18,712 bases of DNA from Pleurotus ostreatus/Saccharomyces cerevisiae fusant (taxonomy: Eukaryota > Opisthokonta), in the NCBI GenBank assembly GCA_024196135.1, contig JAMQCK010000634.1, positions 1 through 18,712 of the forward strand, given 5' to 3'. Shown here one piece after another: positions 165 to 18,712 of this stretch (position 1 is the stretch's first letter; the number at the start of each line of letters is the position of its first letter). Under the pieces are notes generated by a model. The model was given only the letters and a program-made list of their open reading frames with translations. It was not told the DNA's origin and did not search any database. A program made the translations under genes and the position numbers.

Positions 165-943
165 CGAACGGCTAGACCCGCGGGTATCGCTCGCGGATCG
201 TCCATCGACGAGGCTACGCCTCCGAACGCCGAGGAGCGACCTTCGTGGTCCATCCTCTACTAGGTACAACCTACCTAGCTGTCCTTCTCCGGCGAGACCT
301 CAGATCCGAGGACGCGCTTACAAAGGCGGTGTCCGACAAGGCTGGGATTATGGATGCTTTGCTGCATCGAAGAAGGTAGTCCGTTCGAATCGTACATTGA
401 CTATTCTGATCAAGGTCATTGTCATCGCATAGCCGTGCTGGCCGGATCCTTGGGGATGCAAGGTGGAGCGCTTGCGATGGCCGCTTGCATATCATCTATG
501 CCGGGACTGGGGCGAAGGAGTAGGTTCAGTTATATCAGTCATTGGGCCCAGCCATTCGAGTTCGTAGATGATCATCCTTTTCAACACAGCACAGACGGTG
601 TGCGGAGGAGTAGCTATGACCTTAATGAACGAATGTAGCGTCTTGCTGACAGGTCGGGCGCCCGTCGGATGAAAGGAGGGGCGCACCCGCACTGATCCTT
701 ACTTGGCAAGGCCAATAGTAGGTGCACCAAGAAGGGCCAAAGACTTCAACTAGGCATGCGTCGTAGTAGCCTGACGACACGGGCCGAGATGTTGTAGAAG
801 GGTATACGCGACAATAAGAAGATTGCTCTCAACGCTGACACTAAGTAAGTCCTGCAAACCGTTAGTCCCGCTGGCACCCTCGCGCGTTTTCAGTCGTAGC
901 TCACCATTATTACTGCTTCCTTGCAGAAGCGCGTTCCTCGATG
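165..943. other. Gene-free stretch left of the membrane protein
   Basis: I see no supportable gene here. Open frames on both strands are short, overlap each other and lack recognisable motifs. The stretch lies downstream of the stop codon of the membrane-protein gene that reads leftward, so its right end probably holds that gene's 3' UTR and polyadenylation region. Confidence 0.5.
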
Positions 944-2221
944 TCAATCCGCCGTATATACAGGCGGCAACTCGAGCCCCCGTATACCACTGTCCGTATG
1001 TCGGACGACATCAACAGGCGGCAGTGCATTCGATTCTTCCAACCCGTCATTATGACGGAGCTGTACTTCTCGCCCGCCCTTGCGGTTGTTATAGACGTCG
1101 TGGCGATTCCGCGTACTGGGAGGACAGCCTGCGTCGAAGGTTTGACTGGTCTCCGGATATGATGCAGCAGGCCAAGAACCGTGTCCTGACGAGGCGTGTC
1201 GTGTCTTCTGTGGGCCTGACGATTGCGAGGTAGACGAGACGAAGGGCACTATCTCAGCGGCATGCGATGGATACATATAGTCTGCAGGTGAGAGTACTGA
1301 CTGAGCAGCATACCAGGCAGAGCGATAAGCGCGCACCAATGGAGTTATGGGTTTCCTCCTCGGCTCGTTTACGTGCCTTTCGCTTTCGTGCGAATAGGGC
1401 TCCAAGTATGAGGGCCAGACACAAAAGCAAGACACCTCCAGCCACACCTCCGATGATGGCACCGACGTTAGCGTGTCGCTGATGTCGCTGAGAGGTCGGC
1501 TCGCTGCTGCTCCCTGTCGCAGACGAAGTGCTATTGTCGCCGCCGTATATCTCGAAGAAGTCGAACCATATGGTGCCCTCGCCGTCTTCATAGTCGGTGT
1601 TGACATGCTCCATGGTGACTTTGAGAGTACTGGAAAGCGCTCGCTCGTTAGTTAGCTGATGGGACGCGAGGAAGATCGACGCGCACTGATCACCCTGCAC
1701 GAGGTTGTCCGACTTCCAGAACAACTGTTTATACGTGTCGCCTGTGCCCGAGTGCGAAGTGACCGTGGTTGCGTTACCTCCATCGATAGAGTAGCTGGTC
1801 TGTACCCAGTCTGAGGAATAATCGAACGTCTGCCTGCAGGTCAATAACCGTTTGTGAACTGGACGGACTACTCACCCCGTACACGGCGATCAACCACCCT
1901 GACAGTAATTTTAGCGATGGAACAAAAGAAGGAGAACTTACTCCGCACCGCTAAATTCCACCTCAAAATAATCGCCATCGTGTGTGCTGCTGCTCACCGT
2001 ACCCGCATACTCCTCGTCGGGCGTGCCCCCAACACGCCAACTTCCCGTGTACGTGACGTTGATGCTCTGGTCATCGAGTAGGACTTTATCCTGCGTAGAC
2101 CCGGACATTCAGCAGCGAGCTGGTACTAAAGATCGACTATTGACGGTGCACGCCCCCTCGGGAGCAGCGTGATGGCAGAGAAGAAAAGAGAGAATGCGTG
2201 TCGCGCCTCCTTGCTGCCCAT
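944..2221 (-). CDS. Single-pass membrane protein with extracellular beta-sandwich-like domain, unknown function
   Basis: Exons on the minus strand: 2138-2221 (tentative), 1949-2090, 1876-1898, 1337-1829 and 944-1281, giving about 359 residues. Exon 1 would encode a signal peptide with the hydrophobic run AFSLFFSAITLLP. Its GTCGAT donor is weak, so the 5' end is uncertain; everything from 2090 onward joins cleanly. Introns 1899-1948 and 1282-1336 use GTGCGN donors. The 23-nt exon 1876-1898 restores the frame to read FSGWLIAVYGTFDYSSDW. The outer domain is rich in Thr, Ser and aromatics. A Ser/Thr-rich stalk follows, then one transmembrane helix at about residues 205-229 (GAIIGGVAGGVLLLCLALIL) and a basic stop-transfer segment (RKRKARKR). 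The cytoplasmic tail ends in HTDSGIRGLELPPVYTAD. This layout and a His-x-Asp-Ser-Gly / Leu-Pro-Pro-x-Tyr tail are, from general knowledge, common in many uncharacterised basidiomycete surface proteins. No enzymatic motif is seen. A sensor or cell-wall adhesion role is possible but is only inference. Confidence 0.75.
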
Positions 2222-2820
2222 TACGATACTGACATTCCTCAAACATCATCACATAGCTCGCCTCTTGGCGACGGACGCCGCCCGGTTTGATTGCGACCGA
2301 GCGGTCCGCAAGGGACTGCAGACCGCTTGCGTTGGGCGCTGTTCAACTCAGCAGAGCTATTGGGCGGCAGTGCGAGTGACTCACGCGACCATCGACTTGC
2401 TTTCTCGTATCTATTGGGCTGCCTTGAGCTGCACTAGCAAACGTGGCCATCGCGGCGCCGCTTCTTCGAGTGAATCAGGACAGCAATCTCTTCAATAGCA
2501 ATGCTCTACGGCGTGGTTTGTCACACACAAGCTGACCTGAGTGGTGTTAAGCGCTGAGGAAACCTGGGAATATGCCGCCACTCGCACACCTTGAACAAGT
2601 GGGTCAAGTACGTGGCCAGCTCGAAACCAGCACTTTGGTGCATCGAGACATACTCGACGTCGCGCGGTAGTGCGGGTGTGGACGAACAGGGTTGCTGATG
2701 ACCTTGGCAATCGCAAGAGCCGGACAGGGAGGGATACTCGTTAAGTGAATTTGCAGAAGAGGGGAGATCCATATTTAATCATTGTATCCGTACAATAGGA
2801 TTTGGGCAGTCGTGATCTAC
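2222..2820. promoter_or_regulatory. Intergenic region: promoter of the membrane protein, 3' end of the TMEM256-like gene
   Basis: No gene is supportable in these 600 bp. Both flanking genes read leftward, so the left part should carry the promoter and 5' UTR of the membrane-protein gene and the right part the 3' UTR of the TMEM256-like gene. The arms GCGGTC (2301-2306) and GACCGC (2321-2326) form an imperfectly spaced inverted repeat with a 14-nt gap. An AT-rich patch lies at about 2770-2790. Open frames in this stretch are short and featureless. Confidence 0.4.
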
Positions 2821-3560
2821 TCAGAACAACAAAGCAATATATCTGCCGCTTGTCAGCTCAAGCTCATTCACACAACACCAAGTCACTCACCCAGCAATCA
2901 GAATCGAGCCGCCCAGAGGCGTGATGGGGCCCAGAATTCTGACCCTGTGGTTTGGTAGTCAGTACGAGGTCCATGGAGGTTTAGTGGTACGCACTTGTCC
3001 CCAAGCCCCTTCATCTTCGCGACCGTGAGCGCGAAGATACTGCCAGAAAACATGGCCGTGCCGGCGATGATTGCGGGACCTGCGAAGGCGTGGCGGGAGA
3101 AGCGGGGGTGCATAGACACGGCGAGGAGTGCTACACCGTTGGCGACCTATCGGGAAGGAGGCGTTCAGCAAGGTGCTTGGGAGGCGGTGGCATGGTGGGT
3201 AGGGATGCAGATGAGCGACGGGAGTAGAGGGATAACGAGGGCGGGTGTGTGTGATTATATCCTCGAGGGAGATCGTTGCTGCACGCTGGGTGGAGGAAGG
3301 GGGAAGGAACACACCGCGTAGTGGGCCGCTGTCTCCCACGCATGCACCGTATCCGGCGTAACATTGGGCTGCTTCTTGAGTCCATGAGCTGCACAGATCA
3401 AGCCCCCGGTCAGCCTACATTCCCTGAACCAGCTCTCGAATCGCATACGCACCTCCGAAAGCACCCGTAATGACTCCAGTCGCCACTGTACGCGATCAGC
3501 AACTCGCATGCCAGATCACCCGGCCCACTAACCAAAGGCAGCGCCAGCGCGCCAGAGCAT
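2821..3560 (-). CDS. TMEM256/DUF423 family small membrane protein
   Basis: Six exons on the minus strand: 3533-3560, 3453-3485, 3315-3388, 2995-3146, 2891-2944 and 2821-2842, encoding 120 residues. All phases match, with introns of 47, 64, 168, 50 and 48 nt. The start is the ATG at 3560, giving MLWRAGAAFVATGVITGAFG. Family landmarks in order: the N-terminal Gly/Ala-rich helix ending in GAFGAHGL, then AWETAAHYAVANGVALLAVS, then FSGSIFALT, then the signature LGPITPLGGSILIAGY close to the C-terminus. The length and the three to four hydrophobic segments fit the DUF423/TMEM256 family, found from bacteria (YwdK-like) to mitochondria of eukaryotes. The biochemical role of the family is not established. 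The 168-nt fourth intron is long for this locus. The last exon codes only the final residues YIALLF. Identification is firm; function is unknown. Confidence 0.9.
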
Positions 3561-3933
3561 CGAGGAGCCTTGGTTCAGCATACTGCGCGAGATGAGGGGG
3601 GTAAGCTCAGTGAGGGGGTTGCGCATTGGGGAGGTTGGGAGATCGGGCAGTGGTCGGCGGCGTCAAGGCGCGTCTACCCGGCACCGGGCGAACGCTTCAC
3701 CCCGCAGACCATGGTGACTTCTCCGTTCTGGACTTGGCGGGCTCCCGCATGTAGATATTGGTCGAAAGAGTGATGTATGCACTGCAAGCCATAGGTACTA
3801 TACTGGCTATACTTACCAGAAGTAAAGAGGGGACTGATGTCGAGGATGGGGTAAATGAAGATAACTACTTCCCCGCACTTCAGATCAGCGCAGGGACTGT
3901 CTGCAGTAGTATACACGGTGATTATAATGCTCT
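3561..3933. other. Intergenic: promoter of TMEM256-like gene and 3' UTR of WrbA-like gene
   Basis: These 373 bp separate two genes that both read leftward. No coding region is supportable. A GC-rich, G-heavy half lies next to the TMEM256-like start. An AT-richer half (about 3780-3930) lies just after the WrbA-like stop and would be its 3' UTR. Confidence 0.4.
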
Positions 3934-4753
3934 CTACTTGAAGGAATGCTTGGCCAGGGTCTCCCAGAATTGCTGGCCCTGGATCTTAGCAACTTCTAGT
4001 TCGAGAGGCGTTGGCTGGCGTGAGCCATCGCCTCCAGCGAAGGTACCTGCGCCCCAAGCCGATCCTGAAGTCATGGGTTAGCCCACTGAAAGTTCGTGAG
4101 AACGATAGGACTGAGCGTACCTCCATGAACCTCATCGTTGTTGCCCAATTGCTTGAACACCCTGGAGTACCCAAGTGGCACGAAGATCATGCCGTGATGG
4201 ACGAACGTCGACATAGCGTTCGCTACCGTCATCTCCTGGCCACCTCCCTGGGACGAGGTAGAGACGAACGCGCTGCAGAACTTCCCGGAAAGAGCACCTT
4301 GAGACCAGAGCTGGCCGGTGGTGTCCCAGAAGGCCTGCGAACAACGTTCAGCGATATATAAGTATGTAAACCAGGTGAGGCGTACCTTCCACTGGCCAGG
4401 GAAGTTGCCGTAGCGCGTGGGTATGCCGAAGAGGAAGCCATCGTAGTTGCGCAGAGTGTCCGCGCTAGCGATGGGATAGTCGGGCTTAGGAGGTGCGTGC
4501 ATCCTATCGAGGACTTCCTTAGGCAGGGTCTCGGGCACTCTGAGATTGAAGTAGGTACTTTGATTGAATTTATGCAGTATCAGCACGTACTGGTAGATAC
4601 TCGTAGTGCCTCCAGCAGCATGAACGCCAGACTTCACGGCCTCGGCGACTGCGAACGCGTGTAAGCTTGACACCTAGAGGTACGTGTAGGACACGCACGC
4701 TTGCCAACATGGCCGTACATGGTGTATATAACGACTGCGACTCGGGGCGTCAT
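3934..4753 (-). CDS. WrbA-type NAD(P)H:quinone oxidoreductase (flavodoxin fold)
   Basis: Five exons on the minus strand: 4699-4753, 4591-4648, 4386-4539, 4121-4334 and 3934-4064, encoding 203 residues with consistent phases and introns of 50-56 nt. The family enzyme binds FMN and reduces quinones by two electrons using NAD(P)H, avoiding semiquinone radicals. Fungal members (Pst2/Ycp4-like) are cytosolic or eisosome-associated. Visible landmarks: the N-terminal beta strand and FMN-phosphate loop in [20 protein letters not shown], the motif [19 protein letters not shown] at about residues 83-101, the [12 protein letters not shown] segment, [11 protein letters not shown], and the [20 protein letters not shown] flavin-side loop near the C-terminus. 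The length is usual for the family (about 200). In wood-decay basidiomycetes such enzymes are linked to quinone redox cycling, but nothing here proves that role. The gene is divergent from SPB1 across 1 kb that contains a shared promoter element. Confidence 0.95.
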
Positions 4754-4980
4754 GGTGTGCAGGTGCAAGTTTGGTGTGGTCTAATGGGAGGAACCTTCGA
4801 TGCCTTGCGCGCTTATATTGGTCGTGCTGATGTCATCGCTTTTGACTGTGCATTAGTGGGCATGATCGCCTGCCCAATAGCGTCGACCCTCTCGTAAAGT
4901 CTCTGAGAAAGTGAAGAAAAACACGCCAGCCGGCATAGGCATTATTCTGACCAGGCAGAGGGCAGGAGAGATGGAAACAA

Positions 4981-5025
4981 AAGACAAGTCTTCTTCACAA
5001 GCCGTTATTCCGCCCCAAACACGTG
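4981..5025 (-). promoter_or_regulatory. Composite E-box element, copy facing the WrbA-like gene
   Basis: Read on the minus strand, 5025 to 5004 is a 22-bp word beginning CACGTGTTTGGGGCGGAATA and ending AC. It is identical to the copy at 5632-5653. It contains the palindromic CACGTG core bound by bHLH factors. On the downstream side, after an 11-bp gap, lies AAGACAAGTCTT (4981-4992), a palindrome also present in near-identical form beside the other copy. The element lies about 250 bp upstream of the WrbA-like start and points toward it. A regulatory role is inferred from the exact repetition and position. Confidence 0.55.
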
Positions 5026-5665: not shown

Positions 5666-5772
5666 CTTCCGTCTCCGTCGGACCGATTCACCGCTCGCGT
5701 GGCAAAATTTCCCATTTCGTAGATCTCGATCACCGCTGAACGGACCCCTTCTGCTCGTCGCGGTCACTCAAC

Positions 5773-8676
5773 ATGGGGAAGGCTCAGAAGAAGACAGGAA
5801 AGGGTCGTCTCGACAAGTACTACAAGCTTGCAAAGTGCGTGCTCAGGTGTCCTTCCGTATGTCGTGGAGTCTGACAAAACGACAGGGAGCAGGGCTACCG
5901 CGCTCGATCTGCCTTCAAGCTCATTCAGCTCAACAAGAAGTACAACTTTCTGGAGACTGCACGATGCTGCATCGATCTTTGTGCTGCGCCAGGTGGCTGG
6001 CTGCAGGTTGCTAGCAAGCATATGCCTAATAACAGTGTCATCGTCGGTGCGTGTTCCACCACTCAGACCATGCATCGTCCCCTCACACTCTACCAGGTGT
6101 TGACTTGGTCCCCATTAAGCCTATCCCCCGTGTTGTAACCTTCGCCGCCGACATTACTACCACTCATTGCCGAAACCTTCTGCGCGGTGAACTCAAGGAC
6201 TGGAAGGCGGACGTCGTACTGCACGATGGTGCCCCCAACGTCGGAACGGCTTGGATCCAGGATGCCTACACCCAGTCCGAGCTCGTGCTCATGTCCCTCA
6301 AGCTCGCTGTCGAGTTCCTCGTCAAGGGCGGCACCTTCGTCACCAAGGTCTTCCGTAGCACCGACTACAACAACCTCATCTGGGTTTTCAGCCAGCTCTT
6401 CGGGAAGGTCGAGGCGACCAAGCCGCCTTCGTCTCGTAACGTTTCCGCCGAGATTTTCGTCGTCTGCCGCGACTTCCATGCCCCCAAGCACATCGACCCC
6501 AAGTTTCTCGACCCGAAGCACGTCTTCAAGGACCTCGCCGCCTCGATCCCTGCCGACGACAAGGGTTCCAACTCCAACAACGTCCAGGCCAACGTCTTCC
6601 AGCCAGAGAAGAAGCGCCGGAAGCGTGACGGTTACGCCGACGGCGACTACACCCTCTTCCGCACAGCGACTGCGAGCGACCTCATCCGTGGCCCGGATCC
6701 CATTGCCATCCTTGGTTCTGTGAATCAGATCACCTTCACTACGGACGAGGAGAAGGAGTATGTATATCTTTATCTTGACTAGCGAACTGTGACTGACCTG
6801 CTCATAGATGGCTGAAGCTGGAGATCACGAAGCCGGAGATCAAGGCCAACTGCGATGATCTCAAGGTTCTCGGCAAGGGTGACTTCAAGGCTATCCTCAA
6901 ATGGCGGACTAACTTGCGGGAAGACGTGCGTATACCCTCTTATATTGGTCGCTCCGTAGCTAACACCATCCTCAGCTCGGCTTGGACAACAAGTCGAAGG
7001 ACGCCCAAGAGTTGACCGAAACAGTCGAAGTGACCGAAGAGGTCGACGAGGACACCCAGATCCAAGAAGAGCTCGAGCGCCTCAACGCCGAAGCCGCCGC
7101 CCGCACCAAGCGCCAGCGCCGCCGCGCCAACGAGGTCAAGACCAAGACCATCCAGCGCATGCAGCTCCAGATGACCGCGCCCCTCGACATCGGTATGGAG
7201 CAGGCCGACGCCTCCCTCGGCGGCCAGGACGACTTCTTCGACCTCGACGAGGTGGAGCGCAATCGCAAGGGCGCGCGCCGCTTGGCAAAGTCCTCCATGG
7301 ACGATGAGGATGCGGACTCGGATGTGGCGCAGGAGGAAGATGAGGAGGAGGAAGAGCTCGTAGACTCGGAGGAGGAGCGCGAGCGGAGGACACGGGCGCT
7401 GGAAAACGATATGGATGGGATGTACACGGCGTACCGGCAAAGGCTGCGCGAGCGGGACGCAAAGTTCAAGGCGAAGGAGGCGCGGATGAACAACCCGGAC
7501 CGCGAGGAAACGTGGCAGGGTATCAAGGAGGTCGCCAGCGAAGAGGAGGACGATAGCGACGCTGAGGGCGCGGGCTGGGCTGCGAGGGAGCAGCGCAAGT
7601 TCGCAGATGCGGAGGATTCGTCGGACGAGAGCGATATCGATGACGACGAGCCTTCGACGAAGCGGAGACGGACGGAGAACGGTGCTCAGCGGGTGGGCAA
7701 GGGAAAGCTTGTCCAGTCGTTGGAGGGCCCGAAGATGCCGGAGAGCCAGGCGGCCAAGATATGGTTCAGCCAAGATGTCTTCGCCGGTATTGACGATGAT
7801 GTGGAGGACGACGAGGAGGAGAGCGAGGATGAGGAGGACGAGGATGAAGATGAGGATGTCGACATGGAGGAAGAGGTGCGTGCTCCCACATCAACATCCC
7901 TTTTGCAACCCTCTTACCCGATCTGCAGGGCCCCGCTACTCCAGAAGACGACGATGACTTCGAGATTGTCCCGTTACAAAAGGACAGCGACGATGAAGAC
8001 ATGTGGGACGTCGAGGATGACAACGAGGACGCTGCGAACGCAGAGAAAATACGGAGTATGTTGACTTGCTATCATTTATCTGTGTCTTTACTGACCCTCT
8101 GCAGAATACGGCCTCACCACTGGCGAAACCGTCACCCTCGCCCAGGCCCTCGTCAACCGCAACACCACCAAAACCCACCTCATCAACGACGGCTTCTCCC
8201 GCTACTCCCTCAACTCCAAAGACGACCTCCCCTCCTGGTTCCTCGACGACGAGCAGCAGCACTACAAGCCCAACCTCCCCGTCACCAAAGAAGCCATCGC
8301 CGCCCTCCGCGCCCGCCAGCGCGCCCTCGACGCGCGCCCGATCAAGAAGATCGCGGAGGCGAAGGCGCGCAAGAAGCTCAAGGCCGCGCAGCGCCTCGAG
8401 AAGGCGATGAAGAAGGCGGAGGGCGTGAACGAGACGAGCGACCTGAGCGAGCGCGAGAAGGCGGCGCAGATCGAGAAGCTGATGCGCAAGGGCGCGAGCA
8501 AGGGGAAGCCGAAGACGGAGGTGAAGGTCGTGTTTGCGAAGGGCGCGCAGAAGGGGGTGAAGGGCAGGCCGAAGGGCGTGAAGGGGCGGTACCAGATGGT
8601 GGACGCGAGAGGGAAGAAGGAGCTGCGGGCGAAGAAGCGGGCGGAGAAGGCGAACAAGAAGAGGAAGCGGGCTTAG
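5773..8676 (+). CDS. SPB1: SPB1: AdoMet-dependent rRNA 2'-O-methyltransferase of pre-60S ribosomes
   Basis: Seven exons: 5773-5834, 5886-6046, 6097-6757, 6808-6925, 6976-7875, 7929-8055 and 8105-8676, encoding 866 residues (yeast Spb1 is 841). Introns are 49-53 nt. The start [20 protein letters not shown] is typical of the family. The FtsJ/RrmJ methyltransferase domain spans about residues 20-210: the SAM motif DLCAAPGGW at 51-59, and the catalytic K-D-K-E tetrad visible as K32 (RSAFK), D118 (HDGAPN), K158 (FVTK) and E193 (VSAE). A central DUF3381 region follows, then a long acidic stretch rich in Asp/Glu (encoded around 7560-8040). The Spb1 C-terminal domain lies in the last exon ([15 protein letters not shown]) and ends in a Lys/Arg-rich tail. 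In yeast, Spb1 methylates a guanosine of the 25S rRNA A-loop in the nucleolus and is needed for 60S maturation. All key residues are intact. The stop lies 153 bp from the convergent hydrolase stop. Confidence 0.97.
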
Positions 8677-8829
8677 GCGCATTCCCCGTCTTGTCGTTCG
8701 TCTCTGCCACTCATTGCATACCATGTTGTTGTACTTGCATTTATCCTCCATCTGTGTTCTTGTATCCCGGAGTTTACTCGGGCATCTGTTTGTGATACAA
8801 GCTTTTTATTCGACCTTCTATAAAATCAT
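8677..8829. terminator. Convergent 3' UTR region of SPB1 and hydrolase copy 1
   Basis: Only 153 bp separate the SPB1 stop (8676) and the hydrolase stop (8830), which face each other. The region is rich in T on the plus strand, and 3' processing signals of both genes must lie here or overlap the neighbouring coding ends. Confidence 0.5.
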
Positions 8830-10092
8830 CTACTCTGGCGGGTGGAGCGCACCAATAAAATGCGAGACCACCTTCTTGAACTCGTTCGGCCTGTGAAGGT
8901 AGGTTGTCAGTAAAGGCGGTAGCAGGATAGATGACCTCCCACTTCTCCGCGTGCACTGTTGGATCAAGTTAGCGAACAGTCCACTCTGCGGCAAAGGTTA
9001 CTCAAGCTCACCCCAATGACTCGTCGGCAATTCTACCAGCTCCATGTTAGGGAAGAACTTCTGTGCTTCCGGTAGGTTATTCTTGTTGATGTACCTTCGA
9101 CAATCGAGTGAGCTGACGGCGCAAGAAACGACAAGAAAATAGTGCTTACTTGCTCTTGCTACCCTTGATGAAGAGCGTCCTCCCCTGATATTGCCGCTTG
9201 GCAGAGTCGTACGGGAAGTCACCCAACGAGTCAATGTATTCCTCCAGAATATGCAAAGGGATCTTGAAGTGCCCATGCTCTACTAGCGGGGGTACTTCCA
9301 GGTTCGTGAGCAGGAATTGCAGCACAGATGGGTCCTAAACACGGATCAGCGGGATTCAGGGAGTGATAGCAGAACAAGCACCTTCTCCCATTTCGACAGA
9401 ATATCCCTGGCTTCCTTGCGACTTTTCACCTTGGCGGCGTCGACTGCCTTCATGCCCTGGATGTAGCCCTGGAATTCGGGTGATAGTGCGCCCTTGGACG
9501 GGGCGATGTCTTCGACGATGAGGTTCTCGAGCAGGCCCTCCGGCAGCTCCGGGTCCAGAGCGACGCTCATGGCTACCTTGCCTCCCCTGCGATCGGTGAG
9601 TATGTTACGTGGGGATGTAGGGGCACGCGCACATGGAGTGTCCGAGCAAGGAGACGTTGTTAAGGTTGTGTGTGCGGAGGAAGTGCAAGACATCGCCTGC
9701 CATTGCACTGTAGGTCATCGGCTCCTTATGAGGGGAGGTTCCCTGGTTGCGGAGATCCTACGCGCGATGAGCGTCAAGCCTTCACGCAGGCCGGCTACTC
9801 ACCAAAGCATAGACCGGCCTATGCAGCTCATGCGCGAACGCCTTGGAAAGTGACATCCAGTTCCGCTTGGATCCGCTGCAGCAAAGTGAGCATGACCCCC
9901 ACGATGAAAGTAGTCAACGCACAACAAGCCATGGAGAATGACTAGTGGTTTGTCCGTCTCGTTGCCTGACGGGGGCACATTCTTCGAGTAGTCGAGCTCG
10001 ACGACGGCCGAGGCGGACGCGTGGAGGCGGCGCGACGACGCGAGCAAGACGCGTCGGGACGCACAGGACCGTGACAGTGAAGGGAAGAGCAT
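8830..10092 (-). CDS. ABHD11/Imo32-like mitochondrial alpha/beta hydrolase, copy 1
   Basis: Eight exons on the minus strand: 9923-10092, 9803-9875, 9633-9757, 9382-9586, 9150-9334, 9012-9094, 8943-8955 and 8830-8890, encoding 304 residues. Introns are 45-56 nt. The N-terminus (MLFPSLSRSCASRRVLLASS) is rich in Arg and Ser and free of acids, as in mitochondrial presequences. Alpha/beta hydrolase landmarks in order: oxyanion-hole motif HGLFGSKRNW, DLRNQGTSPH, MTYSAMAGDV, the nucleophile elbow GHSMGG (Ser122), VEDIAP (probable acid Asp149) and SHWVHAEKP (His279). The complete triad and the HGLFG/LRN signatures place it with ABHD11 and yeast Imo32, mitochondrial serine hydrolases; the physiological substrate is not evident from the sequence. 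The 13-nt seventh exon supplies part of the VHAE motif. It is a tandem duplicate of the gene at 10432-11730. Confidence 0.93.
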
Positions 10093-10431
10093 GGATGACG
10101 TCGATCAATTCATCCGGTCCGGCCACTACCGTGCCACGCGTTAGCCATCAATGCCACCCAACTGACGAGGCCAGTCTCTGCTTCAGCTTTCTTGCCGACT
10201 TGTGCTTGGAGACCAGGAAGTAACAAACTTGGCTTGTGCCTCGGTTGTTCCTGTTGTGAGAGCCATTTCAAATCCTCGGGAACCGTAAAGCGGCGCTCAT
10301 TCGCGTTGCAAACTCGATGGTGCCACAAATTCAGACTACCGGAAGATATGATCGACGCTCGCCTCACAGATGGCTGCTCGGCGGGAAGCCTAACTACCTA
10401 TGGGACTGCATAGAAAGATCGGTAGCACGGA
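10093..10431. promoter_or_regulatory. Spacer between the two tandem hydrolase genes
   Basis: These 339 bp lie between the start codon of copy 1 and the stop codon of copy 2, which read in the same direction. No gene is supportable. It should hold the copy 1 promoter and the copy 2 3' UTR. Confidence 0.45.
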
Positions 10432-11730
10432 TCAGTCGCTAGATGATCGGTGGACAGGGCCGACGAACTGCGAGACCAGCTTTCGGAACTCTTGAGGCCT
10501 GTGGAAAGAATTGTATCTTGGAAGCCAGTGTTGAGCGCGAAATTTCTTACCTCTCCGAATGCACTGCAAGCGCGATGCACGTCCAGTAAGCAAATTCAAG
10601 AGGACACAACTGACTTACCCCAATGACCCGCCAGAAGTTCCGACAATCGCATGTTCGGAAACATCTGCTGTACGACAGGTATATTGCGCTCATTCATATA
10701 CCTGGCCGATTTAGCACAAAAAAAAGGATGGCGCGGCGCACATGCGACTCACTTGCTCTTCGTGCCTCTGATGAAGAGGGTTCTTCCAGACCATTGCCGC
10801 TCGCCAGGCGCGTACGGGAAGTCGCCCATGTTGGACGTGTATTCTTCGAGAATATCCAAGGGAATCTTGAAGCGCGCATACTCGACCACAGGCGGCAATT
10901 CCAGATTGGTCAGTAGGAACTGTAGAATGGCGGGGTCCTGGGCCGCGGTCAGTTCAATTGTTAGTTCAATAGCCACTCTCATGTCGGAGGACTGTACCTT
11001 TTCCCAAGTGGAAAGAATCTCCGTAGCTTCCTTGCGCGTTGTCACCTTGGCGGCGTTTACTGCCCTCATACCCTTGATGTATCCGGGAAATTCAGTCAGT
11101 TGAGCACCGGCAGCCGGAGCAGTATCCTCGACCACGAGATTCTCCAGTAGCCCGTCCGGAAGGTCCGGATTGAGCGCTACAGTCATGGCGACCTTGCCAC
11201 CCCTGGGTGCGTTGGACAGAGCAATCCCGCTCCTCATCTTCATTCGCTTACATTGAGTGCCCCAGCAAAGACACGTTCTTCAGCCTTTGATTCTGAAGAA
11301 AAAGCAAAGCGTCGCCAGCCATGGCACTGTAGGTCATGGGTGCTTGGTGAGGGGATGCACCATGATTTCGAAGGTCCTACAAGCCGTTCACGAATGTCAA
11401 AGACCTTCAGAGGTGCGGGAAGCCTGCCCACCAGAGCGTAGACCGTTCGATCGAGCGCGGTGGCAAGTGCTCTTGAGTGAGACGTCCAATTTCGTTTAGA
11501 CCCACTATGGTATGCGAGAAGGAATGAGCAATGGGTCTCTGCGAGGTCCACACAGCAACTGACAATAAACCATGGAGAAGAACGAGTGGTCGGTCGGTCT
11601 CGTTCGCGCCTAGCGGAGCAGTCTTCAAGTAGCTAAGATCTACCACGGCTGAGGCAGACGTGTAGACGTTACGCGACGCAAGCAGTACGCGCCTCGTCGC
11701 CCGAGTCCATGATGGTGAGTGGAAGAGCAT
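10432..11730 (-). CDS. ABHD11/Imo32-like mitochondrial alpha/beta hydrolase, copy 2
   Basis: Eight exons on the minus strand: 11564-11730, 11432-11504, 11252-11376, 10998-11202, 10753-10937, 10619-10701, 10551-10563 and 10432-10498, encoding 305 residues. The start at 11730 is chosen by alignment with copy 1 (MLFHSPSWTRATRRVLLASR); an in-frame ATG exists ten codons upstream. The six internal exons have exactly the lengths of copy 1 (73, 125, 205, 185, 83, 13 nt), while introns differ (49-60 nt). The catalytic residues are retained: HGLFGSKRNW, GHSMGG (Ser121), VEDTAP (Asp148) and GHWVHSERP (His278). Exon 4 differs from copy 1 at 20 of 68 positions by my count, including the change from PSKGALSPEF to PAAGAQLTEF, so the duplication is not recent but both copies look functional. 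Substrate divergence between copies is possible. The start lies 74 bp from the divergent RINT-1 start. Confidence 0.92.
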
Positions 11731-11804
11731 CAGTGACGTCTGAGCTGCTCCGGAAAGCACGGGCCGGCGACGACGTGGGTGAACGCGACTTGGACGCGCC
11801 TACC
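11731..11804. promoter_or_regulatory. Short bidirectional promoter between hydrolase copy 2 and RINT-1 gene
   Basis: Only 74 bp separate the two divergent start codons. Both transcripts must start within it or within the opposite gene's 5' coding end. No TATA-like motif is seen. Confidence 0.5.
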
Positions 11805-14782
11805 ATGACTTCCACCCAGCTCAAGACTCTGCTCGCCCCTCCCGACAGGAACAAGTCGCAGCAAACCGTCCTCGCATCCCTCAACTCCCGCTTCCATTCT
11901 ATCGACGACCTCGACGGCCTCGATGACGATTTCCACCAGGCGGCCATTCGGCATGAGCAACTTCAGCGCGATGTGCGTGCCCCTCTGCTGCGAGTGCATG
12001 GTTGCTGAGACGCCCTAGTATAGCTAGCTGCCTCTCAGGCGAGCACGAGTGCACTGCTACTGGATGCTCGCACGAAGATCTCTGAGCGCGCGCATACCGC
12101 GCAGGAGCTTTCCCTCCTACGACATTCCCTCACCGACGAGTTGTCCCAGCTCTCTAATGAGCTGCTGTCCTCTATGTCCGCAGGTCCCGGTGAAACAACG
12201 CTGCTTGAGGATATCGAGACCCAGCATCGGAATCTAAAGGACCTTGGCAATGTGAAGGGATACGTGCAGATCCTGGAAAAGGCGTTGAGTTTGAGGTAAG
12301 TTCTGGCATATGAACATAGTCCGTGCCTATGAGCTTATCAGTCTACTCAGCGAGGCGGCGATAGCACAAGTCAGCTCCCTCCAGCCTTCTGAGATCCTCA
12401 CACCAGCATCCCTTGGGAAGTACAGTGCCTTGCAGAATTATGTTGCACAAGTCGACGAGTACTGCTCATCTGTCGAGGATGCTTCCGGCCAGCAGAAGCT
12501 CCATCTTGTGGCCTTTTTGGAGGAAGTGCGCGAGAAAACTTGGTCCGACATCAAGCAAACCATGTCTACGTGCGTTGACCCAGATGTTTTGCTTCGTTTC
12601 CTGACGATATGCAGCGCGTTGTTGGACGTTGCGGAGCAGCTGAAGTGGCCGATGGCGGTGGAGTGGGTTTCGGCCGACAAAGAAACCAGAAAGACGTTCG
12701 AGCACGCGTTCTACAACCTGCTTCGCTTGCAAGATATGTGAGTGTTGGCTGAGAGAAATTCGCGGCACTTTTTGACACTCGACAGAGGGTCGAAAATGCG
12801 GTCCGCTCTCGGAACGGAGAGGGCCGGGCTCTACCCATTACAGGCGCTTGTACGACCGGTCGCGCTCCGCTTCAAGTACCATTTCGAAGGTACTCGGCCA
12901 ACAAATCGGTTAGACAAGGTGTGCACCTGCCAGTCCCTTGCACTCAAGCCAAGTATTGACCGTTGCCCAGCCTGAATGGTACCTCACACATGTCGCCAAC
13001 GTTGCGCACGAGCATCGGGTCTTCATGGACACCGTCGTTCAAACCCTCTTGAACGCGTCCGAGCATCGGGACATCATCGCTTCGGTAAGACCTGTCTTCA
13101 GACCTGTAGACCCGCTTACTTACCCGCTCTAGCGTGAATTCACCTACTGTCTTCTGCCGCTAGCGCAGCGGAAGCTGAAGCGCACTATACCCTTGCTGCT
13201 ACAGCGGCCTTCACTATTGGCACACACCATCTATCAAACGCTCAGCTTCGATGCCACACTTGTCGAGCAGGGATTCTCCCTCCGCGGGACGTCGGGGGCG
13301 TCCACTGTCGACGACCCAGACCAGTGGGAGGGCGTGAGCGAGACGGTGCTCGGCACCAAGGAGTGGTTCGACGCCTGGATGGAAGGCGAGAAGCGCTGTA
13401 TGTCTCGCGGGACTTTCATCTATGAAGACAGGTTCTCACGCATCTTTGCAGTCGCGGAAGACCAGTATCACGACATCATCAGCGCGGCCGATGCGTGGCA
13501 AATTGCGGATGACGATGGTGAGGAAGGGCCGCGGGAGCACAAGGGAACGAACGCGGCGCGCCGGGTGAAGGCGTTGGTTGAGCAGATTACCGGTATGCGG
13601 CACTCCTCGGGCGCTCCGATCCCGTTTCTGATGCCCTTCAGACCGCTATTCACCGCTTCCGAACGCAGCACGGAAGACCCGCTTCCTGACTACGGTACAG
13701 CTTCCTATACTGGACCACTTCCAAGGGCGGATATCTTCCTCACTGGACGCATTCGAAACCCTGTCTTCTGCACTTCTGCGTGCGGTACCGGGGGCCCTCA
13801 GCTTCGGTGGCAGAGAAGATGGTGGCATGAATGTCGACACGCAACGGCTCACAGCTGGGGTCGAGGGTGTGAAGAAGCTCGCAAAAGCGTGGCTAAGTGC
13901 ACGCTACCTTGAGGCCGCCTTGCAGGGCTGGGGCGAGGACTTGGTATGTGCCTTCCACCAAACTCCTGAGAGGAGAAGCTCACTTTGCGCAGTTCTTCTT
14001 GGAGCTGTGGGCTGAGATAAACCGCTCCCCTGGATTGAAGGCTCGCGTCAAGGCTAGCGCGCTGCTGCCCGAACCAACGTCAGACGAAGATGCAGCGCCG
14101 GAGAACACGATCTTCGACGCGCTCATCGACGTCTACCGCAAGCTAGTGGAGCGCGCAGACGACATGATTGTGCTACAAGTCTCCAACGAGGTCCAAAACG
14201 CCCTCAAACCCCATATGCAGTGGCTGAACTCGTACGCTTCCAACCCCTTATTTCCATCGCAGCGAAGCTGACCTTGGACGTAGCCCCGAAAGCGCGCAGC
14301 AAGATGAAGATGAGATCGCCGTCTCGCAAACTTTGCTGCCCGCGATAGCCCTGCTCAGCGCGCACCTCACCTTCCTGCGCACGACGCTCCCTACTGCCTC
14401 CGTCGCGGCTATCTACCGACGCATCGCGTCCTCGATCGCCGAGCACGTCCTGCAGCGCGCCATCCTCTATCGCGGCCGGCTTAGCCTGCAGGAGGGACGC
14501 CGGTGCGCTGCGGAGAATGGACTGTGGCTCGAGACCTGTTTGGGCGCGCTTGGCGGGGCGCTTCCGCGTACGCGAGTGGAGGCGCCGTGGCTTAGGTTGC
14601 TGCAAGGCGGGCGGCTTATCGCGGCAGAGGGCCCAGCGTGGGCGGAGGTCGTAACAGCGACGTTTGGGCCGACGGACGACGTCCAGTGGCGCGAGGCTGT
14701 TATGCGTGCTGTCGGGCTTGGGGAGATGGACCGGGACGAGGTAGGGAGGGTGCTCAGAAGGAGGGAGGATTTCCAAGCTTGA
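11805..14782 (+). CDS. RINT1: RINT-1/TIP20 family vesicle-tethering protein (Dsl1/NRZ complex)
   Basis: Ten exons: 11805-11972, 12039-12295, 12351-12737, 12786-12918, 12971-13084, 13133-13397, 13452-13592, 13642-13943, 13993-14231 and 14284-14782, encoding 834 residues; introns are 48-66 nt and all phases close. The start at 11805 (MTSTQLKTLLAPPDRNK) is preferred. An in-frame ATG at 11709 would overlap the hydrolase coding start. The first 140 residues are heptad-rich and likely coiled coil. The RINT-1/TIP20 domain covers the rest, with family hallmarks LRFKYHFEGTRPTNRLDKPE followed by WYLTHV, WFDAWMEGEKRFAEDQ, ITDRYSPLPNAARKTRFL, FDALIDVYRKLVERADDMI, and a C-terminal end reading LGEMDRDEVGRVLRRREDF. 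Family members sit on the ER in the Dsl1 (yeast) or NRZ (animal) complex and tether COPI vesicles returning from the Golgi. The length is close to human RINT1 (792). Overall identification is firm; single splice sites in the middle could be off by a few residues. Confidence 0.92.
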
Positions 14783-15501
14783 GGGATACATGGGTATGGT
14801 ATGATCAACATGCACTCTGTAGGTTTGCGATGGACAACTATGTAGGGTCCATTCCTGCTGCATACTAGCACGTCTGCGACCATGACCATGAGGTGTCTAC
14901 CACTCAGATTTGTACCTTGATGTGTCTCTGGGCAAGTCTCTTGTTTCCGTCATTTGAGCTTGTAGGGTCAATAGAAGCACGTGCAGGAATCACTTGAGAG
15001 CCGCAGGCATGGAGACTATAACAACTTGGGGAGAGCAAGGAAGACTTGATGAACGTTTGAATGTGCTAAGCTCGAACGTTCGACACGTTGACAACTTTCC
15101 CGAGGGACGAAGTGAAGGCGCAAGCTGTTTAGAGGTGTTTTCGAGGATGCCCACGCATACTGGAGATCGCTACAAGCTGTCGTCAACAGTCAAAAGAAGA
15201 GCCCGAGAGTGGCATCGATTGACCAGGCATGAACAGTGGACATGCGCCACAACTCGTGAGGTACTACGATAGCGGCCCCTCCTCCGGCATTGTTGCTGAT
15301 GATTGATCGTCGACGAATGCGCATCGCGCGCCACATGCCTCGGCAGGGCTAACAGATAGGGAAGCCACTGCTGTCGTCGGCCTTTCACGCGAGGCAAAAG
15401 CCGCGCCGTGAGGAGGCCGTGTTTCATAGCGAGAAGGCTTTCGTTAACAACGCTCGGGGTAGCCCTACCGGGTATCGAGGTCGGCGAGAAGGCGAAGGAC
15501 T
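14783..15501. other. 3' region of RINT-1 gene and possible end of the hypothetical gene
   Basis: No firm gene. The left part is the 3' flank of RINT-1. The minus strand between about 15300 and 15500 keeps an open frame (reading SVVNESLLAMKHGLLTARLL) that could be a last exon of the hypothetical region to its right, but I cannot join it with confidence. A perfect 12-bp palindrome, TCGAACGTTCGA, lies at 15072-15083. A small plus-strand frame at 14994-15272 has no recognisable motif. Confidence 0.35.
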
Positions 15502-16378
15502 TCAGAGTGCCGTTCGTGCAAGTGAAGTGACCGAGCGTCTCGAAGTGCGCGCCACTCGGAGCAGTACTTGATGGGGAAGCGGCGATGGCGCGGTGATGAA
15601 TAGCGTCTGATTCTGCATGACGGCATCGTCGTCGAAGAGACTGCAGAAACACTCGGGGGCTGGCGTAAAGAAACCTCGAGCTTGTCGGTCGCTCAGAAGG
15701 AGGGCACTTGAAGTCCAAGCTTCTGATGGAAGACCTTCGCGTGGGGGTGCTTTCACCATGCCAGAAGAGACGTGTAGCTGAGCTGTGGCGGAAGCGAGGA
15801 CGGATGCCATACGCAAGTCGTTATGGGGGACAGGATAGACCGACGACGGACAGGAAGTAGGCTCCGATAGAGTGGTAGGCGAGCTAGATAAGAGTAGCGC
15901 GTCAGCTGAGCCTCGAAGAGCGATATTTGGACTGAATATCGTCTCGATATGGCGGATAGCACGTTCATAGGCACAGACTCCGGCCTGCTCACCGATGAGG
16001 GACCGGGCGACAAGATTGGACAAGATAGAGGTGTATAGGCATTGGACAGTCCACCCCTTGGAGAGGCAAGTGCCGCGGCATAGGGAGATCCAGCAACAGT
16101 GATGTCGTATGCTTGCCATTCAGCGAAGGACACCGGTGGTAGGCTGATCACAGGAAGGCTTGATGCAAGTGGCGAGATAGACCCGGTAGGGCAGTTGCGT
16201 CTACCTCAACTTCAATAACTCGGTCCAGGGTGCAAAGGGGGCTATCACGCGCGGGCAGCGCGGTGCCTGCGATGCGGAGTGGTGAGGGGCATGCGCGCAT
16301 ACGCGGCGAGGTCGTGTCGAGGGCGGCCGTCCCCTGGTCGTCTGTTGTGGAGCGCGTCAGGGCAGGGGGCGTACGCAT
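15502..16378 (-). CDS. Hypothetical protein-coding region, exon structure unresolved
   Basis: Two minus-strand open blocks lie in line. One starts with ATG at 16378 (MRTPPALTRSTTDDQG) and stays open to about 16148. The second is open from about 16119 to 15502 and contains GWTVQCLYTSILSNLVARSL, IGEQAGVCAYERAIRHIETI and GFFTPAPECFCSLFDDDAVM. The second block has codon choice like the neighbouring real genes. The two can be joined in phase by a long intron from a GTAGAC donor near 16204 to an AAG acceptor near 16059, but shorter alternatives exist. An internal GTGAGC...CAG pair (about 15992-15932) could be a further intron. I do not recognise a family and no catalytic motif stands out. It could also be a decaying gene. 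It is the downstream neighbour of the secreted repeat peptide gene, on the same strand. Confidence 0.3.
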
Positions 16379-16553
16379 TCACACATACGACTGAGGTGGT
16401 CGAGGTATGATCGAGAATTAATTCAGCAGACTAGATCTGAGCGCTAAATGCAAGCCCAAGTATAGAATACAAGGCGACAGTACAACCGGCGGGGAAGTAA
16501 ACGAGTGCGAAAGGTCCGGGAGGGGAAGAGGATATTCGTGCAGTCAATAAGTT

Positions 16554-16603
16554 CTGTAGAAGGATTAGGGGTGGACATGAGATCATGGGGAGGGGGCACT
16601 CAC
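16554..16603 (-). other. Probable 3' UTR intron of the repeat-peptide gene
   Basis: On the minus strand a GTGAGT donor at 16603 and a TTCTACAG acceptor ending at 16554 define a 50-nt intron matching the local size class. It begins about 40 nt after the TAG stop of the peptide precursor. It has not been verified; the same sequence also lies in a small open frame (16431-16622) that I consider untranslated. Confidence 0.4.
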
Positions 16604-16642
16604 CCACAGCAATGGGCAACACCGAGTCTGGAGGACGTCTTG

Positions 16643-16982
16643 CTACCAGTCCGAGTTGCGGATGCCCTGGCGTTTCCTCCAGTCGGATGTAGGGACACCG
16701 CGTCTCCAGTCGGATGTGGGGACATCGCGTCGCCAGTCGGAGGTCGGGACACCAGCTTCACGCTTCCAGTCGGAGGTAGGGACGCCAGCTTCCCGCTTCC
16801 AGTCAGACGACACGACGCCCGCGTCTGCACGTTTCAATTCTGGTAGCTCGTCGCTCTGGACGGGGTCAGCAAGGATCGACGGCGAGTCGGCGACGGGGAG
16901 GACGACGTACGGGCACAGGTGCGGCGGCGACGGTGGCTGCGAGCAGCAGAGCGGCGGCAGCGATAGCACGAGTGAAGTGCAT
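16643..16982 (-). CDS. Secreted precursor of tandem Ser-Asp-Trp peptides, kexin-processed type
   Basis: Two exons on the minus strand, 16911-16982 and 16643-16855, joined across a 55-nt GTACGT...CCAG intron in phase 0, encode 94 residues. Residues 1-21 are a textbook signal peptide (MHFTRAIAAAALLLAATVAA), cut probably after the Ala run. A short pro-segment (SDELPEL) ends in Lys-Arg. Then come six peptides separated by dibasic or tribasic sites: ADAGVVSSDW, KR, EAGVPTSDW, KR, EAGVPTSDW, RR, DVPTSDW, RR, GVPTSDW, RKR, QGIRNSDW, stop. Known biology: kexin (Kex2) cuts after KR or RR, and Ste13-type dipeptidyl peptidase removes Glu-Ala, as for yeast alpha-factor. Trimming would turn both EAGVPTSDW copies into GVPTSDW, identical to the fifth peptide. 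There is no Cys, no Tyr and no C-terminal CaaX, so it is neither a standard basidiomycete lipopeptide pheromone nor a Tyr-based dikaritin RiPP. Function is unknown: a signalling, antimicrobial or surface peptide are all possible. The uninterrupted open frame that begins at 17011 in the exon 2 frame reads through the intron and lacks a proper signal peptide. Confidence 0.85.
16646..16828 (-). repeat. In-frame coding repeat, six units ending in Ser-Asp-Trp
   Basis: Units on the minus strand, each ending in the codons TC(C/G/T) GAC TGG: 16799-16828, 16766-16792, 16733-16759, 16706-16726, 16679-16699 and 16646-16669. They are separated by KR at 16793-16798 and 16760-16765, RR at 16727-16732 and 16700-16705, and RKR at 16670-16678. 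Period is 33 nt for the EA-type units and 27 nt for the short units. Synonymous differences occur between units (for example CGG versus CGT in the KR sites) while the SDW ends are constant, which suggests selection on the peptide. Confidence 0.85.
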
Positions 16983-18275
16983 AGTGGGTAGGTGGGGGGG
17001 AACGACGACAAACAGCGAAAAGTGCCTGACCTTCGCGGCCGAGAGCTTTTAAATCATACGCATGCCGAGAAAGGGCAGACGCCACTGCGCACCGTCGCAA
17101 CCCACGCGGATCGTTCTCAGCTGTCACACCAGTGACGCATTCCCCCGAGATCGTCACCGGTATCTCGTCCCTCCTTCTCGCTTGCACTCAGTTCTAGTCG
17201 ATTTTGCTTGGCAGATGTACTTGTACGGCTAGCACTAGACGTTCCCTCTATTCACCGGCTTTTTCGAGTACACCGACAGCACAGAGGAGGAGGGGAAAGC
17301 GACGATGAGGGCCTGGAGAGACAGTGCCTGTCACGCTGTGGCGTTTCCCGTGCCTGAGTAGAGGACCGTTTCCTCTCTGATTCAAATTCCGGTCTGCGGC
17401 TTTTGCGACGTGCGAGAACGTTTGTACTCCGTAGCGTGACGTTACGGTTCATCTTCAACGTTTCAATCCACAGGTCTTTTACTCGCCGTTAGACTGGTGT
17501 CTGGCCGACGAAGGCTGTCGGACGGGGTTCTGGTCGTCGGAAAGACGGAGCTGGCCAAGGCACTCCCGCCTGAAATATGCACCAGTGGGAGATTTCCAGG
17601 GCCGATGGCGCACCCGCAAAAGCCGGATGAATTAGCGTGACGCACGTGAGATAATGCCTTTGTTACCGAATTCGGACCCGGTCCGACCGACCGATGGCTG
17701 GGCGTTCTTCTTCCGGGCAGCTGACTGCAGGCGAGGATAACGACCCGGCGAGGGCAGAGCTGGACCCCAACTCGACTGACCGGCCTTCACACACTTCCTG
17801 AAGTGCCCGAGAAGTAGGTCGCCCGGCAACACCTCTGACTCCTCGCTTCTGCTTCAAGGTGGAGTTTACTTCAGCGACTTGGCACGCCCGCATCTTCCGG
17901 GCAAGGCCCTACGAAAGTGCAGCAAGGGTGAGCACAGCGATGCGCAGTTGGCCACGCTCGATCAGTATAGAGTCGGACCTAGTCGACGCAGGTCAACGCA
18001 TGATGGACTCCACACCCTCGTACCGGATCACTCTCGAGGATGGGCGAAGTACCATCGACGATATTTGAATGCGACCTCGGGTGATACGCCCTCTACCCGC
18101 GAGCTCCGGACGAGCTATAGTCTGACGACATGATCCTTGAGCCAGCGGTGAGTCCAGTCGCTTACGAGAGGTCGATCGACATGAGCTTCGGATGTGCATC
18201 GACAAGCTATATTGTACACGTAGAAGTATCCCTGTTGCGTAGACAGGCTGGGTACGAAGTCCAAGATGTAGGGCA
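16983..18275. other. 1.3-kb gene-free region between the peptide gene and PRP17
   Basis: No gene is supportable on either strand; open frames are short, overlapping and without motifs. The left end is the promoter and 5' UTR of the peptide gene, the right end the 3' flank of PRP17; both genes read leftward. A short inverted repeat, CGGAC/GTCCG, lies at about 17673-17685, and a CACGTG core occurs near 17643. Confidence 0.45.
17046..17053 (-). promoter_or_regulatory. TATA-like box of the repeat-peptide gene
   Basis: TTTAAAAG on the minus strand, about 65 nt upstream of the precursor start codon in otherwise GC-rich sequence. The position fits a TATA element with a short 5' UTR. This is inference from position and composition only. 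Confidence 0.45.
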
Positions 18276-18712
18276 CTAATCCTGAAGGGCGGCGCAAGCA
18301 TGTCAGATCGATGTTCTCGTAGGACATTATCAACCGACGTACCCATAGCTTGATGAGACCATCCCACGACGCCGTGACGACCTTGGACTACAGACCCGTC
18401 AGTCAAATATCTAAATGACGACAGCAGCACTTACAGTCTCGTGCGGCAGCCACTCGTGCGCAATGACGACTTTGGAATGTGCCTTGAGCTTCGTCTTTAT
18501 CCGGCAAGTCTTCCAGTCCCAAAACACCATGTTCCCCTCGGCGTCACCGCTGCTGAGCCACTTGCCGTCGGGGGAGAAGCCCACCTGGCAGGCGTACCCC
18601 GCGACAGAGTGCCCCGCGAACCGCTTCTTGCGGTTCTGGCGGAAATTGTCCGTACTGTAGACGAGGATTTGATTGTCCAGAGACTGGGCGGCGAAATAGC
18701 GGTCTGTTGGGC
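18276..18712 (-). CDS. PRP17: PRP17/CDC40 splicing factor, C-terminal WD40 repeats (partial)
   Basis: Minus-strand exons 18435-18712 (cut by the window edge), 18343-18387 and 18276-18281 encode the last 108 residues or so. Introns are 47 and 61 nt. The fragment reads [20 protein letters not shown], then [19 protein letters not shown], a WD unit ending NMVFWDWKT, then KAHSKVV with [18 protein letters not shown] and LIKLWD-stop. The GYACQV, PHETSKV and terminal DGLIKLWD strings are the signature of the Prp17/Cdc40 beta-propeller, which joins the spliceosome for the second catalytic step. The last exon is only 6 nt (GAT TAG): it supplies the final Asp and the stop. Reading through the preceding intron would instead add a long unrelated tail. 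The N-terminal part lies beyond the window. Confidence 0.93.

Follow-up and report, generated by a model that had tools for sequence, protein, structure and literature searches.

A two-exon gene on the minus strand of the window (the whole 18,712-nucleotide stretch of DNA analysed here, on contig C874) encodes, at 16982-16643, a 94-residue precursor with a predicted signal peptide and six short peptides, each with Ser-Asp-Trp (SDW) at its end. The explanation that fits best – at a probability of roughly 0.7 – is that this is a KEP, or KEX2-processed repeat protein, which releases linear SDW peptides that probably serve as a secreted signal outside mating. Judged from its sequence, the gene is very probably a KEP. 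Processing to linear peptides is likely as well, and a self-signal role for the released peptides may be suggested at somewhat below even odds. The gene is real, the class to which it belongs is published, and its core appears to be new.

The initial annotation had called the family unrecognised and perhaps undescribed, and had suggested an antimicrobial or a modified, RiPP-like product. Its account of the layout stands; its suggestions about novelty and product found no support. KEPs were named in 2019 (Le Marquer, PMC6339444), and since Trp-ended basidiomycete KEPs with STE13 spacers are already described (PMC6339444, PMC9769878), the gene is a further member of a published class rather than the first of a new family.

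Gene structure and intron

Exon 1 (16911..16982, minus strand, 72 bases) contains the start codon and translates as the leader MHFTRAIAAAALLLAATVAA-APVP. Exon 2 (16643..16855, minus strand, 213 bases including the TAG stop codon) encodes the propeptide SDELPELKR and the six peptide units. Between them lies a 55-base, phase-0 intron (16856..16910, minus strand) that begins with GTACGT, ends with CAG and carries CTGAC, a branch-like motif. These are exactly the coordinates that the initial annotation had given for the gene and its intron.

Residues 1–20 (16982-16923) form the predicted signal peptide, with a hydropathy maximum of 2.46 at residue 7 (Kyte-Doolittle, 13-residue window). By hydropathy alone, the gene has a predicted signal peptide like that of a KEP, and the leader is predicted to direct secretion. 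A Pfam scan of the frame assigned it no family. Upstream of the start codon by ca. 64-71 bases is a TATA-like TTTAAAAG (17046..17053, minus strand), a consensus match only; it is identical in the second copy of the gene on contig C534 and is a possible core promoter.

Several comparisons bear on the intron. Contig C534 lacks 8 bases inside the intron stretch, which leaves an intron of 47 bases there, while both exons align without gaps between the haplotypes; the intron is supported, since this gap would shift any reading frame that crossed the stretch. Two related proteins, available as protein only, differ at the same point: in P0001, APVP is followed at once by sequence like that of exon 2, and P0002 has the same leader followed by VRRAPP, which is near the intron's own reading. 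The label 'lgn' of P0001 presumably refers to the Logan assemblies, which include RNA-seq. In a KEP gene on contig C1079, too, a phase-0 intron falls at the corresponding position. Together the haplotype gap and the two proteins support the putative 16856-16910 splice, short of proof.

The peptide units

The full translation of 94 residues reads MHFTRAIAAAALLLAATVAA-APVPSDELPELKR and then ADAGVVSSDW-KR-EA-GVPTSDW-KR-EA-GVPTSDW-RR-DVPTSDW-RR-GVPTSDW-RKR-QGIRNSDW. In translation, and all on the minus strand, the units are ADAGVVSSDW (16799..16828), GVPTSDW (16766..16786) and GVPTSDW again (16733..16753), the latter two each preceded by KR-EA, then DVPTSDW (16706..16726), GVPTSDW immediately after RR (16679..16699) and QGIRNSDW (16646..16669). 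A signal peptide followed by six peptides that KR, RR or RKR separate is what had been read from the DNA at the outset, and the translation, with hydropathy for the leader, bears it out. The last unit ends at the stop codon and thus needs no C-terminal trimming.

In the precursor body, a dibasic site or the stop comes after all six Trp residues. When the body was shuffled 200,000 times, SDW ahead of a dibasic site or the end occurred at most twice, as against six times in the precursor: there were no occurrences in 199,026 shuffles, one in 972 and two in 2. Glu-Ala, a spacer of the X-Ala kind removed by STE13, follows two of the six dibasic sites, which gives the gene a partial STE13 signature. 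The first unit begins with Ala-Asp, a pair that STE13 is not expected to remove. The proposed kexin-type, alpha-factor-like layout is supported, down to these Glu-Ala pairs, and so is the absence of a CaaX end: the C-terminus is NSDW.

The four VPTSDW units differ only synonymously, at two codon columns. They use three codons for Pro and two for Thr with the amino acids unchanged. Compared pairwise, there are 9 synonymous and 0 non-synonymous differences, while a random single change would be non-synonymous in 76% of cases; the pattern calls for at least three silent changes, so the sample is small.

The copy on contig C534

The gene is present again at C534:1726-2057. C534 is collinear with the window in two large pieces, 5678-18712 at 91% identity and 323-4996 at 86%, and from 15000 to the end of the window identity is 94–100% throughout, reaching 100% at the end. 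From this collinearity and the rise in identity we infer that C534 is the second haplotype of one dikaryotic assembly. There are five codon differences between the two coding sequences, four of them synonymous. The single non-synonymous difference is a Ser/Gly exchange in the propeptide, and all six peptides are identical.

Conservation between the haplotypes was considered as a sign of constraint and rejected. The surrounding window is as conserved as the gene, so the identity is weak evidence, and the codon pattern of the VPTSDW units within the gene is the better evidence. Elsewhere along the window, haplotype identity varies strongly – it is 82% at 10749-11799, a stretch that covers an alpha/beta-hydrolase-like gene (named by reading; the scanned frame had no Pfam hit).

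The allele differences were likewise rejected as evidence for the sense strand. The plus strand has a 136-residue open frame across the repeats, and it too is silent at all three of the exon 2 allele differences that it covers. These repeats could accordingly be read as an antisense frame or a non-coding tandem repeat rather than as a gene, a reading that is highly improbable: translated from its Met, the antisense frame opens without a hydrophobic leader (maximum −0.06), it crosses the 8 bases missing in C534, and it is the sense reading that is matched by P0001 and by the C1079 gene of the same exon layout.

Related genes in this genome and elsewhere

Outside this genome, a protein search with the window gene gave two of 726 candidates at E <= 1, P0001 and P0002, and an alignment search found the same two proteins among the 7992 candidates scored, a capped number. 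P0002 (E 0.03 in the protein search, 9.8e-4 in the alignment search) is a fragment consisting of the leader, which leaves P0001 as the sole full relative outside this genome in these searches. The protein search relies on words of five residues in common and can therefore pass over KEPs of greater divergence.

The leader of P0001 is identical to that of the window gene at 24 of 24 residues. Its pieces are GGPLSDW (preceded by a single Arg), TDAGVVSSDW, AEAGVPTSDW, EAGVPTSDW, EAGGRLSDW and WVRTSDW, with KR-EA spacers at two of its five dibasic sites. All six pieces end in SDW, so the dibasic/SDW pattern does recur in a relative. Since SDW is fixed in P0001 and the front half varies, the core looks less like a hormone of one exact sequence.

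The same genome contains a second KEP gene at C1079:6870-5914 (locus L008 1147-2103, minus strand), which encodes 221 residues and matches the window gene at E 3.7e-7. It has the same layout of signal and intron – a leader, MRLDHILAFAAALLASAAVG-SPV, and then a phase-0 intron of 291 bases. Its 13 pieces, among them GFRTNDW and QVKSPSW, all end in Trp (10 in NDW, two in PSW and one in SDW), as do all six units of the window gene. Every one of the 13 Trp residues is at a dibasic site, and X-Ala or X-Pro follows 10 of the 13 dibasic sites. GIRNSDW of the window gene and GFRTNDW of this one align with a score reached by 0.4% of shuffles. A protein search with the C1079 frame gave none of 4070 candidates at E <= 10.

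The genome searches with both KEP genes scored the best candidates only, and more KEPs may exist. A stretch on contig C1135 (locus L028 1408-1950) resembles the C1079 gene at E 1.5e-17, with units in two frames and with no MRLDH-type leader found in the 3,153 bases around it. It is likely a degraded KEP relic and was excluded from the unit counts. Weak matches on C729, C706, C1031, C200 and C455 (E 0.03-1.3) were dropped; among these five loci, two Trp-dibasic or SDW motifs fall in one frame only at C729 and C455, where the frame runs opposite to the match and lacks repeats.

Processing and mating genes

The genome has matches to enzyme families of the kinds that the precursor would need. There is one match to the kexin P-domain, on contig C1057 (E 1.7e-25), and among solved structures its frame comes out nearest to Kexin (E 5.6e-49). 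A DPPIV_N match on C836 (E 2.3e-52), whose solved relatives are dipeptidyl peptidase 4, marks a putative DPP4-like gene that may be the STE13 orthologue or another DPP. Matches to S10 carboxypeptidases (30 pieces) and OPT transporters (66 pieces) were also found; both families are general in fungi, so their presence singles out nothing.

We infer secretion, cleavage, trimming and, above all, the signalling role, in the following course. The leader likely takes the precursor to the secretory pathway. Cleavage by kexin would follow there, behind each KR, RR and RKR, with the basic residues then stripped by a KEX1-type carboxypeptidase and Glu-Ala taken off by a STE13-type dipeptidyl peptidase. 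This would release about six linear peptides of seven to ten residues – GVPTSDW three times, DVPTSDW, ADAGVVSSDW and QGIRNSDW – and the N-terminal Gln of QGIRNSDW may turn to pyroglutamate. Once outside the cell, they would probably serve as a signal unconnected with mating. There is supporting precedent, by analogy, for the processing. Trp-ended KEP peptides were detected by mass spectrometry for KEPs of Coprinopsis cinerea, in yeast and in the fungus, and in Lentinula and Pleurotus, according to PMC9769878.

A precursor of this layout could also be that of a mating pheromone used in place of the CaaX pheromones or alongside them. The KR-EA spacers are those of alpha-factor, and the alpha-pheromones of Fusarium and other Sordariomycetes have a well-conserved PCW motif at the C-terminus (PMC6339444). 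This is nonetheless quite unlikely. C450 and C476, which also carry STE3 receptors, account for ten of the 12 matches to the CaaX-type Pheromone family, and none is on C874 or C534; the mating system therefore looks like the usual basidiomycete one, sited elsewhere. A genome search without a positive control gave no match to a STE2-type receptor. The peptides are also identical in both haplotypes, whereas mating specificity would presumably call for differences. The C450 and C476 clusters are possibly two haplotypes of the B mating-type locus. The assignment of the genome to a basidiomycete rests on the STE3, CaaX-pheromone and hydrophobin matches.

On the RiPP-like reading suggested earlier, the cores would be precursors of cyclised, dikaritin-like peptides made by UstYa/DUF3328 oxidases. 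Ustiloxin-type precursors are KEPs, and among 76 KEPs with homology to six putative pheromones of basidiomycetes, 17 (22%) are near DUF3328 genes (PMC7329392), so modification is possible within the class in general. UstYa matches are present in this genome too. All 15 of them are elsewhere: none is on C874, on C534 (contigs of 19 and 28 kb) or on C1079. A Pfam scan of nine neighbouring frames within the window found FMN_red as the sole oxidoreductase, at 4071-4673, ca. 12 kb away. The cores of the window gene have no Tyr, and across 1680 KEPs from 317 basidiomycete strains just 103 (6.1%) are near DUF3328 genes (PMC7329392). A cyclised product is thus improbable here, and linear SDW peptides are the expected release.

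The FMN_red frame is of the NADPH-dependent FMN reductase family. Other recognised neighbours are an SPB1 rRNA methyltransferase (6033-8676) and a RINT1/TIP1-family gene (13133-14782), the second frame of which was below the cut-off.

Function of the peptides

The strongest competitor to a self signal is an outward action of the peptides, in a defence or effector-like way, with bacteria, other fungi, animals or plants as the targets. Since six kep knockouts of C. cinerea had no phenotype in axenic culture, Vogt et al. lean towards a role in the biotic environment (PMC9769878), and the front half of the core differs between P0001 and the window gene. Against such a role, the synthetic KEP peptides whose testing PMC9769878 reports had no antibacterial activity. 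The VPTSDW units here differ synonymously only, and the cores, short and free of Cys, are not strongly basic. Nothing found here supports the antimicrobial proposed at first. By our estimate a non-mating self signal ranks ahead of an outward role, which is a possible but doubtful alternative.

With this gene, the Trp-ended KEPs of basidiomycetes gain a fresh core end, SDW, and an instance of two genes within a single genome. The C1079 gene, with NDW and PSW ends in one precursor, links the Asp-Trp and Ser-Trp ends that the cited papers describe from separate precursors. It can be speculated, with less confidence than any claim made above for a self signal, that mushroom-forming fungi run a second, non-mating hormone system of Trp-ended heptapeptides made by the alpha-factor route, of the GVPTSDW type here and of the QYKAPSW/SGVAADW type in other agaricomycetes, with a receptor or importer yet to be known. 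If the peptides are hormones, synthetic peptides would be a direct handle on a layer of mushroom signalling apart from mating.

Comparison with known systems

The precursor of Saccharomyces alpha-factor has Kexin sites, Glu-Ala dipeptides and Trp-containing repeats, and gives unmodified linear peptides. The window gene resembles it in the sites, the dipeptides and the Trp repeats, and a linear, unmodified product is predicted here as well. It differs in core sequence and in its genome, which has a CaaX pheromone system and no STE2 match (searched without a positive control). Qsp1 of Cryptococcus ends in Trp. It is a secreted peptide signal of a basidiomycete (PMC7537855), as is proposed for the window gene, and OPT transporters are present here too; its sequence is unrelated to the window gene. 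Ustilago Rep1 is a basidiomycete precursor cut by kexin, as is predicted for the window gene, but it is described as having no STE13 signature, and the peptides it yields become attached to hyphae (PMC6339444).

The closest systems are other KEPs. Basidiomycete KEPs with clear STE13 signatures, for which a hormone role was proposed (PMC6339444), share with the window gene a signal peptide, here a predicted one, repeats separated by KR or RR, X-Ala or X-Pro spacers and a C-terminal Asp-Trp. In many KEPs of basidiomycetes, STE13 motifs are found along with cores whose last residue is Trp (Vogt 2022, PMC9769878). No paper with any two of TSDW, SDWKR and KEX2 was found in a search of texts outside their supplements, where the gene may be listed.

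A post hoc test compared seven chosen cores from the two genes (two cut to the last seven residues, DVPTSDW omitted) with five published peptides (one cut to the last seven residues). Five of the 35 pairs had p < 0.05, all with C1079 cores and none with cores of the window gene, and the sum of best scores was reached in 0 of 20,000 shuffles. What links the window gene to the published cores is therefore its layout, the final Trp and the gene on C1079.

Pleurotus ostreatus 1091723 is a KEP with an STE13 signature (PMC7329392), with the peptides MSGVAADW, SGVAADW and LSGVAADW; SGVAADW was detected by mass spectrometry in Pleurotus and SGTGEASAADW in Lentinula (PMC9769878). Unlike these SGVAADW KEPs, the window gene has the core GVPTSDW and a spacer at only two of six dibasic sites. 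In C. cinerea, 490115 expressed in yeast was cleaved and trimmed in an STE13-like manner to QYKAPSW and QMRPPSW, and 447393 gives, from its non-repetitive C terminus, GPPAPSW, detected in culture by mass spectrometry (PMC9769878). With 490115 compared by its core peptides only, QVKSPSW of the C1079 gene matches QYKAPSW with a score reached by 0.3% of shuffles; for GVPTSDW against GPPAPSW, p = 0.07. The C. cinerea products are seven-residue, Trp-ended peptides, as are most units here, with PSW at the end where the window gene has SDW.
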